DNA of 35,113 nucleotides from a virus. The position numbers and the translations under genes were made by a program. Where the stretch lies: positions 1-35,113 of the IMG/VR virus record IMGVR_UViG_3300032116_000700, one strand, 5' to 3'. The notes under the pieces are model-generated. The model saw only the letters and a program-made list of their open reading frames with translations, was not told the origin of the DNA and did not search any database. Within the stretch, counting starts at the first letter, position 1. Every line of letters begins with the position of its first letter. Shown here one piece after another: positions 3,828-26,542 of the stretch.

Positions 3828-4104
3828 TTGTTTCCTCTTGGGTGGGGTTCTTGAATTCCAAATAACCCTCTATCATTCCGGCTATGTCGTCTAGGGTAAT
3901 ATCAATAGAACAAAGCCTTTCGCGGAGTTCGCGAATAGAAGCGAGCGCGGCCTCATAGTCCTCGGTGTCTCGTAATAATTTGTTTATTCCTGGGCCGGAC
4001 TGATCGCCCAACGCTCTCAACTTTCCGCAAGCCTTCCAAACGAATTGTGCTACTTCTTCCGAGAAGTTCTCTTCGTCTATTGTAAGTTGGACTTTGAGCC
4101 TCAC
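3805..4104 (-). CDS. Hypothetical 99-aa protein coupled to groEL
   Basis: The GTG start at 4104 is chosen because it overlaps the groEL stop as GTGA and has SD GGAGG 5 nt before it. An upstream extension into the groEL frame has no such signal. The protein has an N-terminal strand (RLKVQLTIDEE) and a helix-rich remainder ending in a polar tail (PTQEETNGSQNED). No family was recognised. Coupling to groEL suggests expression in fixed ratio with it, but there is no evidence that it is a co-chaperone. Confidence 0.75.
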   Translation of the reverse strand: MRLKVQLTIDEENFSEEVAQFVWKACGKLRALGDQSGPGINKLLRDTEDYEAALASIRELRERLCSIDITLDDIAGMIEGYLEFKNPTQEETNGSQNED

Positions 4105-5672
4105 GGAACCTCCACGACTGCGTGACCGCTGGTGATAAGAGTTCCAGCCGCAGAAGCCGCGTTTTGAAGAGCGCATCGTGTAACCTTTGCCGGATCAACG
4201 ACACCAGCAACAACGAGGTCTTCAATAGAGTTAGAAACAAAGTTCCATCCTTCATTACCTTCTGCTTCAAGAACGCGATTAACGATAATGTCCGGTGATA
4301 AACCAGAGTTGATCGCCATTTGTCGGATCGGAGCAGAGCAAGCCTTTATTACACTATTATAACCCAATAGTCTATCGCCTTCAAGTTCTGGTGGTGGAAG
4401 AGTGGAAATAACGCGAATCAAAGCGGTTCCACCGCCAGGAACGATGCCTTCCATTCTTGCTGCCTTTACAGCCTCAACCGCATCTTCGATCCTGTGCTTC
4501 TTCTCGATCATTTCGATCTCGGTTGCTGCTCCAACCTTGATAACAGCAACACCAGAAGCAAGGCGGGTAATGCGCTCTTGAATTCTTTCTCCTTCGTGAA
4601 TGTTGTCGGTTTGATCCAACTCGGCCTTCAAAGCCTCAATTCGGTTCTCAACTTCACTCCAATCGCCCTTACCACCAATAATGGTTGTGCCGTTCTTTAA
4701 AACCTCAACCTTCTTTGCTTGTCCGAGATCGATCAACTGGAACGTGGATAAACTGACGTTGGAAGCCTTTGAGAAGAACTTTGCGCCAGTAGCAATAGAA
4801 AGGTCAAGCATAATGTCGCGACGCTCCTGACCGTAGCGAGGAGCCTTTACAGCGGCTACCTTCATAGTTCCGCGCATAGCATTCATAATAAGAGCCGCCA
4901 ACGCTTGTCCTTCTATCTCGGAGGCAACGAGAATAAGTGGACGACCTTCACGGGCAACAGGTTCCAGAACAGGCAATAGGTCTTGGACCTTATCCAACTT
5001 ATCATCAACAACAAGAATAAAACAGTCCTCATAAACAACAGCGTTTCTACGCTCGTCATTCACGAAAGCACCAGCAGCATAACCGGAATCAAACCTGAAC
5101 CCCTCAATAAGATCCAAAGTTGTTTCGGTAGAACGTGCTTCCTCAACGATAAGCGAACCGTCCTTTCCAGCAGAGGTAATAGCCTTTGCTACAAGACGGC
5201 CAATAACGTCATCATTATTAGCAGAGATAGTTGCGATGTGTGTAATGTCTGTCTCGGATCGAATCGGATTAGAAACCTCTCTCAATTGGGTTATAATCCG
5301 TTCAACAGCGAAGTCAATTCCTCGCTTTACCTCAACAGGAGAAGCACCAGCGGTAATGTGCCGGAATGCTTCGGTAAGAATGGCGCGAGAAAGAACCGTT
5401 GCCGTTGTGGTTCCATCACCGGCCTCCGAGTTGGTCTTTCTACTTGCTTGCTTGATAATTTGGACGGCAGCATCCTCAAATGGATCTTGAAGAGAAATGA
5501 ATTCAGCGACCGAAACGCCGTCCTTGGTAATGATAGGAGCGCCGTCCTTGGCCTTTAGAATAACGTTTCGCCCTCTTGGACCAAGAGTAGAAGAAACGTA
5601 ATCGGCCAAAAGATCGACGCCCGAAAGAATCTTTTGTTGTAGAGAAAAGTTTGAATTATAGTGTTTAGTCAT
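4101..5672 (-). CDS. groEL: Group I chaperonin GroEL (phage-encoded)
   Basis: This 523-aa protein would form the ATP-driven chaperonin ring that folds proteins in the host cytoplasm, here probably phage proteins. The features read as functional: STLGPRGRNV, TKDGVSVA (Asp51, equivalent to GroEL Asp52), DGTTTATVL (86-94), the Asp in the DAVEAVKAARMEG helix (equivalent to Asp398), VPGGGTAL, and GVVDPAKVTRCALQNAAS near the end. It is about 25 residues shorter than E. coli GroEL and lacks the GGM tail, which usually lines the cavity. It has its own promoter (5693-5721) and a hairpin over its SD. No GroES gene is adjacent; a GroES-like gene lies at 22207-22503. Confidence 0.97.
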   Translation of the reverse strand: MTKHYNSNFSLQQKILSGVDLLADYVSSTLGPRGRNVILKAKDGAPIITKDGVSVAEFISLQDPFEDAAVQIIKQASRKTNSEAGDGTTTATVLSRAILTEAFRHITAGASPVEVKRGIDFAVERIITQLREVSNPIRSETDITHIATISANNDDVIGRLVAKAITSAGKDGSLIVEEARSTETTLDLIEGFRFDSGYAAGAFVNDERRNAVVYEDCFILVVDDKLDKVQDLLPVLEPVAREGRPLILVASEIEGQALAALIMNAMRGTMKVAAVKAPRYGQERRDIMLDLSIATGAKFFSKASNVSLSTFQLIDLGQAKKVEVLKNGTTIIGGKGDWSEVENRIEALKAELDQTDNIHEGERIQERITRLASGVAVIKVGAATEIEMIEKKHRIEDAVEAVKAARMEGIVPGGGTALIRVISTLPPPELEGDRLLGYNSVIKACSAPIRQMAINSGLSPDIIVNRVLEAEGNEGWNFVSNSIEDLVVAGVVDPAKVTRCALQNAASAAGTLITSGHAVVEVP

Positions 5673-21990: not shown

Positions 21991-22207
21991 TGTGTTTTCC
22001 TTCTAGATGGTCTATGTAGCGTTGTAAATACCACGCTGCTTTCTTCAAGTCTTCTAACATTCTGTCGTGCTTCTTGCCTGCTCTTGAAATGTATTTTACA
22101 ACATTCCCAAGATGAAAACCTAAATTCCAGGCTTCAATAACCTTGATCGCTTCATAAGTGTTGGTTTTTCCTCCATAATGTGAAGGATGCTCAACTACGT
22201 CAGCCAT
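21959..22207 (-). CDS. DUF3310 family protein
   Basis: The 82-aa sequence HPSHYGG...YEAIKVIEAW...FHLGNVVKYISRAGKK...EDLKKAAWYLQRYIDHLE is the DUF3310 (SaV-like nucleotide kinase-associated) signature seen in many phages. The domain may bind nucleotides, but the role is not established. Its ATG overlaps the upstream TAA (TAATG). Confidence 0.93.
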   Translation of the reverse strand: MADVVEHPSHYGGKTNTYEAIKVIEAWNLGFHLGNVVKYISRAGKKHDRMLEDLKKAAWYLQRYIDHLEGKHNEPGTTTKTV

Positions 22208-22503
22208 TATTCAGCCCACGCAGCGATAATGTGGCTTTCAAGAATAAAACAATATTCATAACCACGAAGTTCTACCTTCTCTAATAGATGAGTTGGGAAG
22301 ACAACTTTCGTCAAAGCATCAAACTTACGAACGCAGTCGTGCGAGCAATGAATAACTGTCGCGATAGTGTGTTCTCGCAAAGTTTCTTTTGAGGTCTTGA
22401 AGTCCTCTGGAAGAAGAATGAGAGAAGGTTGTTCTTCTTGTCCTGGGGAACTATGTTCCAACTCCACAAGAATTCGTCTGTTGTGTGGTTCAATAAAAGA
22501 CAT
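22207..22503 (-). CDS. GroES-like co-chaperonin candidate
   Basis: The 98 aa align by pattern with GroES: IEPHNRRILVELE (GroES IRPLHDRVIVKR), PSLILLPED in place of GGIVLT, ATVIHC for the GEVLAVG strand, KVVFPTH for DIVIFN, and a C-terminal EYCFILESHIIAAWAE like EVLIMSESDILAIVE. The length is normal for the family. The mobile-loop region (SPGQEEQPSLILL) has GroES-like hydrophobics. It probably caps the phage GroEL (4101-5672) or host GroEL, as T4 gp31 does; this is inference. The start is ATG 22503, overlapping the upstream stop as TGATG. Confidence 0.6.
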   Translation of the reverse strand: MSFIEPHNRRILVELEHSSPGQEEQPSLILLPEDFKTSKETLREHTIATVIHCSHDCVRKFDALTKVVFPTHLLEKVELRGYEYCFILESHIIAAWAE

Positions 22504-22742
22504 CAATACTCCATAAATTTATTCATTTCAATAGCGCGTTCAAACAAACGGAACTTTTCAGTACTCAAAAGTTGGTCGTGAGTTTTCTTACAACGCTTAC
22601 AGATAAAGCGAACGAAGACCTCGCCTCCGTGCTTTGTCTCAATTTCGTTTGTTGAAAGCCAGTTGTGCTTTTTTAAGCCGGTTGGAGAAGCGGGACAATT
22701 TTCATCTTGGTTCTCCCCGGCGATAATGTGGTTTAAATTCAT
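22503..22742 (-). CDS. Hypothetical 79-aa protein with CxxC
   Basis: The start is ATG 22742 with SD AAGGAGGG. It is the first gene of a ten-gene operon. It contains FVRFICKRCKKTHDQLL, a CxxC pair, with an earlier lone Cys in ENCPASPTG, so it may be a partial zinc site. No family is recognised. Its SD sits in the 3' arm of a 12-bp hairpin. Confidence 0.7.
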   Translation of the reverse strand: MNLNHIIAGENQDENCPASPTGLKKHNWLSTNEIETKHGGEVFVRFICKRCKKTHDQLLSTEKFRLFERAIEMNKFMEY

Positions 22743-22808: not shown

Positions 22809-23354
22809 TCAGACCTTCGCTCTTTGTTGTAGAAGATAGAGGAAAGTTTCCAACTCGTTTGCTTGGGCGGCAAGCAAGTCATTTAGACCAAGGGGCAATT
22901 CGCCTGCTTCGTCAAGTCTGCTGAAAACATCAGATAGAAGGTCGTGATGACCTTGTAGAACTGTTAGACCTTCGCGAACTATTTGATCGGCTGGCTTATC
23001 AGTTAGACATTCCATTTGACCGAGAATTTCGGCTGCGGCTTGTGTAATGTGAACGGGGCAACCAAGTTCTTCTACTCCGGTGTTTCCAATAGCCTTCTCA
23101 ACAAGACCGTCAAACTGTGCTTCAAGGGCAGGATAAATGCCCCCAAAGAGGGTTGTGTGGTCGCCAGCAAAACCTACACCTTTGGTAAGGTTGTGAGCGC
23201 CGTGGAACCAAAGTTGAGCAGCACGAACCGAGGGAATCAACTGACCCATAGCCTCAACAAGCATAGAACTTTCTTCTACTACTGGTTCTTGGACCATAGC
23301 GGCTTCTACTTCTTCTTTGATAATTCTACGCAATTGTGATGCTGTAAGTTTCAT
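22809..23354 (-). CDS. Dps-like ferritin with phage-type N-terminal peptide
   Basis: The 181-aa protein contains a Dps/ferritin four-helix pattern with ferroxidase-type residues at family spacing: His54, His66 (12 apart), Asp82 (16 on) and Glu86 (4 on), against 12, 15 and 4 in E. coli Dps. Dps proteins form 12-mers that store iron and protect DNA from peroxide. The first 20 residues, MKLTASQLRRIIKEEVEAAM, match the short peptide found at the start of many phage virion-associated proteins, suggesting head targeting (inference). An ACTATTTATT motif lies 18 nt upstream, pointing to late expression. Confidence 0.75.
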   Translation of the reverse strand: MKLTASQLRRIIKEEVEAAMVQEPVVEESSMLVEAMGQLIPSVRAAQLWFHGAHNLTKGVGFAGDHTTLFGGIYPALEAQFDGLVEKAIGNTGVEELGCPVHITQAAAEILGQMECLTDKPADQIVREGLTVLQGHHDLLSDVFSRLDEAGELPLGLNDLLAAQANELETFLYLLQQRAKV

Positions 23355-23372: not shown

Positions 23373-23382
23373 AATAAATAGT
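23373..23382 (-). promoter_or_regulatory. ACTATTTATT motif upstream of the Dps-like gene
   Basis: Coding-strand motif 18 nt before ATG 23354. Its first two bases are the end of the terminator-like stem (23381-23411), so termination and re-initiation would be adjacent. Confidence 0.5.
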
Positions 23383-23411
23383 CCTTTCTACCCAAAATAG
23401 ATAGAAAGGAC
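23381..23411 (-). terminator. Terminator-like hairpin after nrdJ
   Basis: GTCCTTTCTA (23411-23402), an 11-nt loop, TAGAAAGGAC (23390-23381), then TATTTATTTG. The 10-bp stem is perfect but the U tract is interrupted. Confidence 0.55.
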
Positions 23412-23418
23412 ACATTTA

Positions 23419-24465
23419 TCACTTAACTTCGCAACCACCAGCGCCGCAAGCCACTTCGCCGGATAGATCGGTGTTATCGTCTACTTCGTGAACGTAGTTG
23501 AGGTCAATGGAGGTAAGCGTCTTCATTAGCCTTTCGTAAGTTTCTTCATCGCAGTCCTCAAATGGCGCTTGCTTGTAAGTGTGTTCAAACGCTGGAAGAA
23601 CAGACAGACCGTTATAGAATGCTCTGTTTTCCCACATCCACTCACCAACAACATCCCATTCATCACTCTTGATCGAAACAGTAGCAGAAACGTTGTGGGT
23701 GTTTTGACCCTTGCGGTGTCCTGCTTTGATCCAGCTTTGGCTTACCTTCTTTACTCTTGCGAGCAGATCAAGTGCGCTTTCTCCTCTTGTAATAGCTCCT
23801 TCTGGTGCCTTTTGAGGAACAGAAATAACGGCTGTGTCGTGAGGGCGGAAGAATTCATCTTCAATAAGTTCTGGATGACTTTGTGAAAGGTAAGAATAAA
23901 TGGCTTCATTCTTTCCAACACGAATGCGACGTAGGTAAGTGTCGCTGTGCCAAGCGTGAATGCCCGAAGAAGTTCCAAGAACAAGCGAGGTTGTGCCGGA
24001 AGGCTTGACGCAAGTGGTTCTTGCTGCTGGGTTGATCCCCAAAAGAGCCGCAACGCGGACATTTTCTTCTTTTACGACCTGTGCTGCCTTTTCCATGTCC
24101 AAAGAAAGGACTTTTCCAGAAGCAATTCCGGTCATTCCCACACCTATTAGAGCGTCCTTCTCGGTGGTTCTTTGCCAAACAGGGCGTAGGTAGTGGAAGT
24201 CGGTGTAGGACGCCTGTAAAGTGCCAATAAACGCGGCTGCGCGCACTCTATCTTCGTATTCTTCCTGGCTTTCCACATCGCTTACGTTCACTTCTGTTAG
24301 GTTGCAGAACTGGTAAGGGCGAAGGGCAATTTCGCAGTTGTGAACCAACAACTCATTAGCAAAAAAGTTATGGTTCTTTTTTACTTGAATGTCATAAACG
24401 TCTCTATTCTTTTCAATAGTTATACGCTTGATCTTGGTTCTTGTAATATTCGTAGTCGTTTCCAT
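23419..24465 (-). CDS. nrdJ: NrdJ C-terminal half fused to C-terminal split intein (IntC)
   Basis: The 348-aa product begins with a 43-residue IntC (24465-24337): TKIKRITIEKNRDVYDIQV...HNFFANELLVHN, with the terminal His-Asn and following Cys+1 of a splicing intein. From Cys44 it is class II ribonucleotide reductase: CEIALRPYQFCNLTEVN, TTCVKPSGTTSLVLG, SGIHAWHS and a C-terminal CGAGGCEVK redox tail. Trans-splicing with 25301-26542 would restore NPC-CEI at the active site. Spliced exteins total 617 residues. It starts at ATG 24465 with SD AAGGAG, 46 nt inside the endonuclease gene. Confidence 0.95.
   Translation of the reverse strand: METTTNITRTKIKRITIEKNRDVYDIQVKKNHNFFANELLVHNCEIALRPYQFCNLTEVNVSDVESQEEYEDRVRAAAFIGTLQASYTDFHYLRPVWQRTTEKDALIGVGMTGIASGKVLSLDMEKAAQVVKEENVRVAALLGINPAARTTCVKPSGTTSLVLGTSSGIHAWHSDTYLRRIRVGKNEAIYSYLSQSHPELIEDEFFRPHDTAVISVPQKAPEGAITRGESALDLLARVKKVSQSWIKAGHRKGQNTHNVSATVSIKSDEWDVVGEWMWENRAFYNGLSVLPAFEHTYKQAPFEDCDEETYERLMKTLTSIDLNYVHEVDDNTDLSGEVACGAGGCEVK
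24337..24465 (-). other. Split intein C-fragment (IntC)
   Basis: 43 codons, containing the block F/G-like sequence VYDIQV...NHNFFANELLVHN before Cys+1. It resembles the IntC of the NrdJ-type split inteins described from marine metagenomes. Confidence 0.93.
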
Positions 24466-25244
24466 TCTAATATCTCCTTATTATAGGTGGTGGTTATATA
24501 TGGTCCTATATCTCTTATTAGGACTATTTCTATATCCAGTCTTTTTGATAGTTCTTCTGTTTTTACTATCCCTCTATCCCAAAACCCTTTGATTTCAACT
24601 ATTTTCATCAAAGTTCCTTCTTCGTAGATAAAAAAGTCTGGTCTATACGTTGTTTTCTCAAGTTGGAAAGTTTGCTGTTCTACGTCCCATTCTATCGCAT
24701 GAGAGTCAAGCCACTTGGCATATATATATTCATATGTGCTACGAAGCCAAACAAACTTATTTCTTGTTCTGTTGAAGTAGTATCCCTGAATGCCTCGCGA
24801 GGTCTTATTAGTCTTTCTATGAAAGGTCTTAAACCAACCTGCTCTATTGTTATACAACGACTTCAGGTTTTCACTTCTTATTTCTTTTGTTTTGTTATAT
24901 ACTATATTTTTGCCTTTATTTATCTCTATACCAAGTATTGAAAAAAGAGTTCTTACTCTCGTTGGTGTCAAGTCTATCTTTTTGCCTATTGTTTTCAAAC
25001 CATACCCTTCACTATAAAGAGAAGATATAAAACTTTTAGCAAAACAATATTCGCTTGGATATATCCTACTAATATTGTTGATAATAAAACTTCTTTTGTT
25101 GCTTGCGCGGGCGGTATTGCCAAGTTCAGCGACTCTATTAGAAGCGTATATTTTGTACTCTTCTGCGAAGTCTTCTGGTATAAGTACGACTTTTCCTTTT
25201 TCGTGGTTGAGATATATTGTTCTTATCGCTTCTTCTATTTTCAT
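24420..25244 (-). CDS. Free-standing homing endonuclease, Vsr-like (fractured-gene family)
   Basis: The start is placed at ATG 25244; an upstream TTG at 25259 is in the hairpin arm and is less likely. The 274-aa protein has an N-terminal helical region with a helix-turn-helix-like SEGYGLKTIGKKIDLTPTRV (78-97). A C-terminal nuclease core follows: WLRSTYEYIYAKWLD (Glu172), YRPDFFIY (Asp203) and KIVEIKGFW (Glu217-x-Lys219), the Vsr/EDxHD-type arrangement of endonucleases found between split-intein gene halves. It would cut intein-less nrdJ alleles so that the cassette is copied in (family knowledge). The RBS lies in a 14-bp hairpin, implying controlled timing. Confidence 0.85.
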   Translation of the reverse strand: MKIEEAIRTIYLNHEKGKVVLIPEDFAEEYKIYASNRVAELGNTARASNKRSFIINNISRIYPSEYCFAKSFISSLYSEGYGLKTIGKKIDLTPTRVRTLFSILGIEINKGKNIVYNKTKEIRSENLKSLYNNRAGWFKTFHRKTNKTSRGIQGYYFNRTRNKFVWLRSTYEYIYAKWLDSHAIEWDVEQQTFQLEKTTYRPDFFIYEEGTLMKIVEIKGFWDRGIVKTEELSKRLDIEIVLIRDIGPYITTTYNKEILEWKRLRILQEPRSSV

Positions 25245-25245
25245 G

Positions 25246-25295
25246 TTTGCGGGCTCCAACCCTTACATTATAAATAGTTTATTGGAGCCCGCAAA
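25246..25295 (-). promoter_or_regulatory. 14-bp perfect inverted repeat before the homing endonuclease, motif in loop
   Basis: TTTGCGGGCTCCAA (25295-25282), a 22-nt loop containing ACTATTTATAATG, then TTGGAGCCCGCAAA (25259-25246), followed at once by CATG. The GGAG ribosome site lies in the 3' arm. No U tract follows, so it is not a terminator. Read-through RNA from the nrdJ operon should be silent for the endonuclease. Confidence 0.75.
25269..25278 (-). promoter_or_regulatory. ACTATTTATA motif in the hairpin loop
   Basis: Coding strand ACTATTTATAAT, matching the late-type motif and also containing a -10-like TATAAT. A transcript starting just downstream would lack the left arm of the hairpin. 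Confidence 0.5.
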
Positions 25296-25300
25296 GATAC

Positions 25301-26542
25301 TCATTCAATAGAAAGTAGTATATCTTCTTCTGTCAAGTGTGCTGCTTCAACATATCCCCTATTCTCTGTGAATACTCTATGGTCGGGAGTTAGAATGAGG
25401 ACTTGGCCGCTTTCTGTTTCGATCCTGATAACATCAGCGTCTTCTCTCGTCATGGCTGCTTCTTCTACTGGTTGTAGTTCAAGACTACAAGTTGTTTCAT
25501 CGTAAGAAAGCACGCTGATCGATTCGCCACTCTCAACCCTTTCAACCAACTCACGCATAGTCATTTGACCAACGTTTGTTGTAATGAGGGTGTCTCCGTC
25601 AACGCAACATGGGTTCGTTCCCCAGTCCTTATCATTGTTTAGATAAATGCCTGGCTCTCCTGAACCGCTCTCACGAATGCGGGTCCAAAGGTCCATAAAG
25701 TAAGCCTTATCGATCTTGTGGCGAAGAAGAACGGCAGAGTTGTTAGCACGACCGCGTTGTGGGTTGGTTTCCCACCAGTTGCCCGACTTACAAGCGATCA
25801 TTTCATCGTCGTCAGCAGAGAACAAAGAAATAAGAGCAGCGCGGCGAATGCCGCCAGCAAGCACGGCATCTGCGATGTGGCACATAATGTCGTGTGACTC
25901 AATAGGAGTTAGTTTCTCTCCGTCCTTCTTTGTGTTTAGAATTCCGTCAATCTTGACCAAGCACTCAATAAGAGGCTGTGGTCCTGGTGCTTTACCGCCT
26001 GACGTAACCAAACGGGCACCCTTGGGGCGAATGTCCGAGAAGTCAAAGCGAACGCGGCTTGAACCTCTGAAATAGGACTGAATAAGAATGCGAACAGCAT
26101 CAGCCCAGCCTTCAATAGAATCGCCAACAAGGAAACGCTTTTCACGACCAGAAGGACGGCGGATCTCTGGTAGTTTCTCAACGTGATGCTTTTGGACCGA
26201 GAAACCTACGCCAGTTCCACCAAGAAGCAAGAACATTGCTTCGGAGAAAGAACGCAGATCATCAATAGGCATGTAAGCGCAGTTGAAAATGCGGTTTGGT
26301 GCGATCTCAATTGGCTTGCCGCCAAACTGCATAGAACGCATAGATGGAAGAACCTTGCGATCAAAGACGGCTTGATAGGCTCCTCTGATCTGTTCTTCAA
26401 GGTGAGGATAACGCTTAACGTGCATTTGGACGTTTCGCTCTGTAATTTCCTCAAATGTTTCGCGACGGTACTCTTCTGGGAGGTAGCGCGCATATTTCAT
26501 GTGAGTTGTGATATCCGATAGGATCTTAGATGCTAGGTTCAT
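25301..26542 (-). CDS. nrdJ: NrdJ N-terminal half fused to N-terminal split intein (IntN)
   Basis: Residues 1-312 are the N-terminal part of B12-dependent (class II) ribonucleotide reductase: LPSMRSMQFGGKPI, FNCAYMPI, GGTGVGFSVQKH, SYFRGSSRVRFDFSDIRPKGA and GGIRRAALIS, ending GEPGIYLNNDKDWGTNPC. The next 101 residues are IntN: Cys1 with CVDGDTLITT, TPDHRVFTENRGY (block B with the TxxH-type His) and a stop after ILLSIE. The break falls between N-P-C and C-E-I, inside the substrate-binding Asn-Cys-Glu active-site motif, so the enzyme needs splicing. It overlaps the helicase gene by 17 nt. Confidence 0.96.
   Translation of the reverse strand: MNLASKILSDITTHMKYARYLPEEYRRETFEEITERNVQMHVKRYPHLEEQIRGAYQAVFDRKVLPSMRSMQFGGKPIEIAPNRIFNCAYMPIDDLRSFSEAMFLLLGGTGVGFSVQKHHVEKLPEIRRPSGREKRFLVGDSIEGWADAVRILIQSYFRGSSRVRFDFSDIRPKGARLVTSGGKAPGPQPLIECLVKIDGILNTKKDGEKLTPIESHDIMCHIADAVLAGGIRRAALISLFSADDDEMIACKSGNWWETNPQRGRANNSAVLLRHKIDKAYFMDLWTRIRESGSGEPGIYLNNDKDWGTNPCCVDGDTLITTNVGQMTMRELVERVESGESISVLSYDETTCSLELQPVEEAAMTREDADVIRIETESGQVLILTPDHRVFTENRGYVEAAHLTEEDILLSIE
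25304..25606 (-). other. Split intein N-fragment (IntN)
   Basis: 101 codons from Cys1 (25606-25604) to the residue before the stop, containing intein blocks A (CVDGDTLI) and B (LTPDHRVFT). It has no endonuclease domain of its own. Confidence 0.94.

Follow-up and report, generated by a model that had tools for sequence, protein, structure and literature searches.

A phage Dps-type mini-ferritin with a modular N-terminal peptide that may address it to the virion head

An open reading frame on the minus strand of a 35,113-nucleotide virus fragment (hereafter the window) encodes, almost certainly, a mini-ferritin of the Dps type. The frame (22809..23354, ATG start, 181 amino acids) is a real gene that is conserved widely, and the N-terminus of its product, which reads MKLTASQLRRIIKEE, is a module separate from the Dps body. 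On balance, the protein is best regarded as a Dps-family ferroxidase, the subunit of a mini-ferritin cage, fused to a modular N-terminal peptide that would serve as an address for the phage head, by analogy with the internal proteins of T4. It is about an even call that the virion contains this Dps in active form.

The AF2 model of the protein, built from 15 relatives (mean pLDDT 89.6), consists of four long helices and a short BC helix in the helix order of Dps, all encoded on the minus strand. Helix A (codons 31-56; 23187..23264) contains H51 and the ferroxidase residue H54 (codon 23193-23195), and helix B (codons 66-92; 23079..23159) contains the ferroxidase residues H66 (23157-23159), D82 (23109-23111), and E86 (23097-23099). 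They are followed by the short BC helix characteristic of Dps (helical at residues 95-98 and 100-112, the latter encoded at 23019..23057), by helix C (codons 122-149; 22908..22991), and by helix D (codons 157-179; 22818..22886), which carries the conserved residues D159, E169, Y173, Q177, and R178. In a Foldseek search against the PDB, the best matches were all Dps proteins (Nostoc Dps4, 5hjf, E 3.4e-4, probability 1.00), and the best viral fold match of the model was a phage Dps (E 8e-7). At the level of sequence, a profile search against the PDB ranked Dps first, though weakly, while a PHROG search returned PHROG 3636, annotated just as “DNA binding protein”, and a Pfam search of the protein found nothing. 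Homology to Dps is nevertheless traced through a bridge, since the relative L246 is 33% identical to the window protein over 159 amino acids (E 3e-18) and itself matches a solved Dps at E 8.5e-7; PHROG 3636 provides a further link. The Dps/ferritin fold proposed in an earlier note on this DNA was thus borne out by structure prediction, fold search, and this sequence bridge.

Among the viral fold matches, A0A6J7WIS1, A0A6J7XDU5, and A0A6J5LAB8 bear the names of a prohead protease or of a ParB/sulfiredoxin protein and yet resemble the Dps model; they may be Dps domains fused to head proteins. A fusion of Dps to a prohead protease, hinted at by the names of A0A6J7WIS1 and A0A6J7XDU5, was present in none of the ORFs examined.

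H54, H66, D82, and E86 are invariant in an alignment of 54 distinct family members, so that their spacing is not a matter of chance; D65, G59, F62, G64, Y74, Q177, and R178 are likewise invariant in these rows. The ferroxidase-like set that the earlier note had read at these four positions within a four-helix pattern therefore holds, and the protein is a predicted iron-oxidising ferroxidase with the intersubunit His-His-Asp-Glu set of Dps. The distance from H66 to D82 is 16 residues here and 15 in textbook Dps, because one residue has been inserted after H66, as the alignment with L246 indicates. Four residues after the second ferroxidase His, E. coli Dps has an Asp, and the window protein has F/Y there. 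The protein shares with the Dps/Dpr mini-ferritins, such as Nostoc Dps4 and E. coli Dps, both the fold with its BC helix and the ferroxidase set; unlike them, it has no Pfam match, carries the inserted residue and an N-terminal phage tag, and is acidic (whole-protein pI 4.7), without a Lys-rich DNA-binding tail.

The window encodes a class II ribonucleotide reductase, a DnaB-like helicase, an exonuclease, a UvsX-like recombinase, SSB, a DnaE-type polymerase, a ThyX-like synthase, and GroEL (4101-5672). Judged by eye, the T4-like myovirus immuto, a Flavobacterium phage, has a similar gene order around its replication genes. Immediately upstream of the Dps gene lies an ORF composed of the C-terminal half of an intein and the C-terminal half of the ribonucleotide reductase (23419..24465, minus strand). 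The whole reductase region (23419-26542, minus strand) is split into two ORFs with intein-N and intein-C halves, and a free-standing endonuclease-like ORF (24420-25259) sits between them; the arrangement is a split-intein “fractured gene”. On the other side, a small ORF (22207-22506, minus strand) starting with PHNRRILVELE has by eye the look of a GroES-type co-chaperonin; an NCBIfam search with it gave no match. A strong hairpin resembling an intrinsic terminator (23381..23411, minus strand), with a 14 bp stem and a T-rich tail (z-score -5.5), separates Dps from the ribonucleotide reductase gene, and this tail is the T-rich stretch upstream of Dps. The hairpin is probably what had been taken for a late-type motif, a claim that did not hold: the T4 late-promoter motif TATAAATA has two copies in the 35 kb window, no more than chance would give, and both lie away from the Dps gene.

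The tag itself, MKLTASQLRRIIKEEVEAAMVQE (codons 1-23; 23286..23354, minus strand), is found once within the window. It is predicted to form a helix at residues 5-20, which is joined to the ferritin body by a low-confidence linker (codons 24-30; 23265..23285, minus strand; pLDDT below 50 at residues 24-26). The helical peptide has the basic residues K2, R9, R10, and K13 and a net charge of about zero. Possible L/I/V-x-E sites follow E14 (I-K-E) and E23 (V-Q-E), the latter being succeeded directly by P24. In the Dps family of IMG/VR (n=59), the tag is present in 10 members, a KLAGILxE peptide in 4, and other extensions in 11, and the remaining 34 have no N-terminal extension; on the Dps tree, both the tag and the KLAGILxE peptide could require more than one gain or loss. 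All nine distinct tagged Dps proteins have I-x-E at position 14, and three of the nine keep L/I/V-x-E at positions 21-24.

Outside the window, the same tag is found at the start of hundreds of proteins; it heads at least 185 clusters of unrelated protein bodies on IMG/VR contigs of large uncultured phages, often in genes arranged in tandem. A degenerate form of its pattern occurs in at least 119 stretches of IMG/VR and in 7 stretches of the cellular species genomes (257 Gb), all of them on MAG contigs, several of which are multi-tagged and thus probably phage. The tag is hence phage-specific and nearly absent from cellular genomes. A domain scan covering 72 tagged proteins recognized polynucleotide kinase-like, HD/RelA-like phosphohydrolase, L,D-transpeptidase (YkuD), and GNAT acetyltransferase domains, and exonuclease and tRNA-ligase phosphodiesterase domains are also carried by tagged bodies. 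Such enzymes are plausible injected cargo; the proteins encoded at L085:4774-5505 and L110:1319-2263 are examples of candidate effectors. Tagged genes are weakly enriched near Dps (12 of 50 against 8 expected, p 0.028). Among isolated phages (50,697 records), a tblastn search with the 20-residue tag consensus, a short and therefore insensitive query, gave a single weak match (55% identity, E 7), and the earlier description of the peptide as typical of phage virion proteins does not apply to isolates. The closest isolates by portal are Microcystis phage Mel-JY01, with no tag-like peptide in the genome stretch read, and immuto, which has diverged look-alikes of the tag, one of them (gp072) between portal and protease. 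No description of the tag was found in the part of the literature covered by the search.

Evidence that the tag moves between genes is provided by two relatives, L007 and L012, which are 96-97% identical on both flanks and wholly different between the ribonucleotide reductase and Dps genes, with a breakpoint at the border between tag and body. The Dps tag of L012 (L012:3381-3458) and the tag on a gene other than Dps in L007 (L007:2142-2219) share 82% DNA identity. The simplest reading of this exchange is recombination between neighbouring tags, and it suggests that tags are swapped among cargo genes via recombination inside the tag. The gap between ribonucleotide reductase and Dps is where relatives gain or lose tagged cargo genes.

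Conservation of the tag across the 185 body clusters spans residues 1-22 and then ends. At position 21 or 22, [LIVM]-x-E is present in 113 of the 185 bodies (61%), as compared to about 2% at most later positions. In T4, the prohead protease gp21 cleaves after L/I-x-E (PMC9026906). The MCPs of the present lineage have LLKE/STS, VLKE/SNS, or LLRE/SNA (summarised as [LV]L[KR]E/S, where the slash marks the putative cut site) just ahead of a conserved FPxVRRVF block. Of 25 contigs bearing the tag, 18 encode a gp21-like protease (phrog_207), whereas a random set of 20 contigs includes one that does (Fisher p 4e-6); when only contigs of at least 130 kb are considered, a small size-matched control, the figures are 11 of 12 and 1 of 4. 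The protease is also found in every one of the 13 contigs with a Dps-family member that reach 100 kb, and G001 and G002 are tagged-Dps contigs that carry it. The window, being a fragment, has neither a head gene nor a phrog_207 protease, and the protease and head system is therefore deduced from relatives.

Genes of the prohead core lie in T4 between portal and protease. In G001, a tagged gene of 194 amino acids occupies this position, and the same is true of a tagged gene in L077, L078, L085, L100, L113, L143, and L147. Taken together, tagged genes show no general clustering around head genes: 19 of 216 have protease or portal within 1 kb, fewer than expected at random, and the number near the protease alone (18 against 11 expected) is within the range of shuffles. 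Given the motif at the tag end, the similar motif in the MCPs, the co-occurrence with the protease, and the locus between portal and protease, the tag is likely to be a head-address signal resembling the capsid-targeting sequence (CTS) of T4. The earlier suggestion of a head-targeting-like peptide consequently survives for the most part. It is favoured, indirectly in every case, by the modular attachment to unrelated cargo, the L/I/V-x-E end, the protease, the prohead-core locus, and phage specificity, whereas a minority of the tagged Dps proteins keep the site at 21-24. In this regard, the first ten residues of T4 IPIII are enough for head targeting and packaging, and an Asp at CTS position 10 stops processing but not targeting (PMC9026906), so that targeting without processing is possible in T4.

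The likeness to the CTS of T4 IPI-III and Alt (PMC9026906, PMC3012670) lies in a short peptide at the N-terminus of cargo proteins that are unrelated and change fast, in a putative L/I-x-E protease motif, and in the presence of a gp21-like protease, here in relatives. The tag differs in sequence and is longer (about 22 residues), and targeting is proposed by analogy. The N-terminal 30 residues of DarB of phage P1 are likewise enough to send cargo to the phage head, but no sequence consensus has been reported among the P1 Dar proteins, unlike the tag (PMC9024508). Encapsulated ferritins offer another parallel, in which a ferritin-type enzyme is sent into an HK97-fold shell by a short peptide (PMC11202242). 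There, however, the peptide is usually C-terminal, the shell is a protein nanocompartment and not a DNA-filled virion, and the ferritin forms no cage of its own, unlike Dps.

From these parallels we infer how the protein would be targeted to the prohead, cleaved, packaged, and active on iron. Displayed on the exterior of the cage, the tag would attach to the scaffold core while the prohead assembles, as T4 internal proteins do, and some Dps would thereby be enclosed together with the DNA. The gp21-like prohead protease may trim the tag after the L/I/V-x-E motif. Packaged Dps would bind Fe2+ and oxidise it with peroxide or oxygen, and either the packaged genome would be spared or Fenton chemistry would be blunted in the new host after ejection. 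More tentatively, and with somewhat less than even confidence, many large uncultured phages may use a head-address peptide unlike that of T4 in sequence to load interchangeable enzymes, here a mini-ferritin, with tags swapped by recombination; the virion would then correspond to an encapsulated ferritin whose shell is filled with DNA.

Most Dps-family members lack the tag, which speaks for a Dps that stays in the cytoplasm and limits iron and peroxide damage during infection, the tag being then a recombination-prone module at gene starts that has no role in the head and spreads via homology for cassette exchange. Such an account is also in keeping with the fact that L007 and L012 swapped the tag along with the upstream cassette, and with known phage Dps genes near nucleotide metabolism (that of GAP52 adjoins NrdD), since the window Dps follows ribonucleotide reductase. 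Nonetheless, it appears rather unlikely: an amino-acid pattern, and not just DNA, is kept in phages that have diverged greatly, and it stops with L-x-E, the association with the gp21-like protease is strong, and the KLAGILxE peptide among the other Dps extensions likewise ends in L-x-E.

It is improbable, too, that the destination of tagged proteins is some phage structure other than the head (tail lumen, membrane, or replication compartment), because genes with the tag are found repeatedly between portal and prohead protease and the tag-end motif fits a capsid protease; what suggests it are a tagged 402-aa protein of G003 with a weak tape-measure match, encoded beside sheath and neck genes, and a tagged 467-aa protein of L105 weakly matching tape-measure families. 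The helical nature and the four basic residues of the peptide would suit a DNA-binding or assembly extension, a role that N-terminal tails have in several bacterial Dps proteins, but the peptide recurs on 184 or more unrelated bodies besides this one, its net charge is near zero, and the full-length protein is acidic, which makes this explanation very improbable.

Dps encoded by phages is already known, in gut phages of the Gratiaviridae/Flandersviridae (PMC8008677), in Lactobacillus phages (PMC6669764), and in Cronobacter phage GAP52 and Synechococcus phage S-SRM01; the Dps of Proteus phage Privateer was found by mass spectrometry in purified virions (PMC7881722), and hence a virion Dps is not unheard of. 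Phage encoding is what the window protein shares with all of these, and the tag on Dps is what differs here: the Dps proteins of GAP52 and S-SRM01 are without it. A tblastn search of the window protein against the phage collection gave no match. If the head-address reading is true, the tag marks, legibly in sequence, which proteins of uncultured phages are candidates for packaging in the virion and injection, in genomes whose functions can hardly be read in other ways. Hundreds of small proteins that lack annotation could then be tested together as head cargo, and packaged Dps would be an unusual viral guard of the genome or of the new host against iron and peroxide.

Other N-terminal peptides recur in these phages. 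A second type, [RK]xxxLAG[IL][IL]xE, which ends in an L/I-x-E motif, is found on the Dps of L194, L197, L198, and L201 and also on other proteins (L193:4582, L179:1676). A third, WxxF[LV]xE, is present upstream of Dps in L012, at L384:450-1466, and at L386:1521-2534, and resembles by eye the capsid-targeting sequence of T4.
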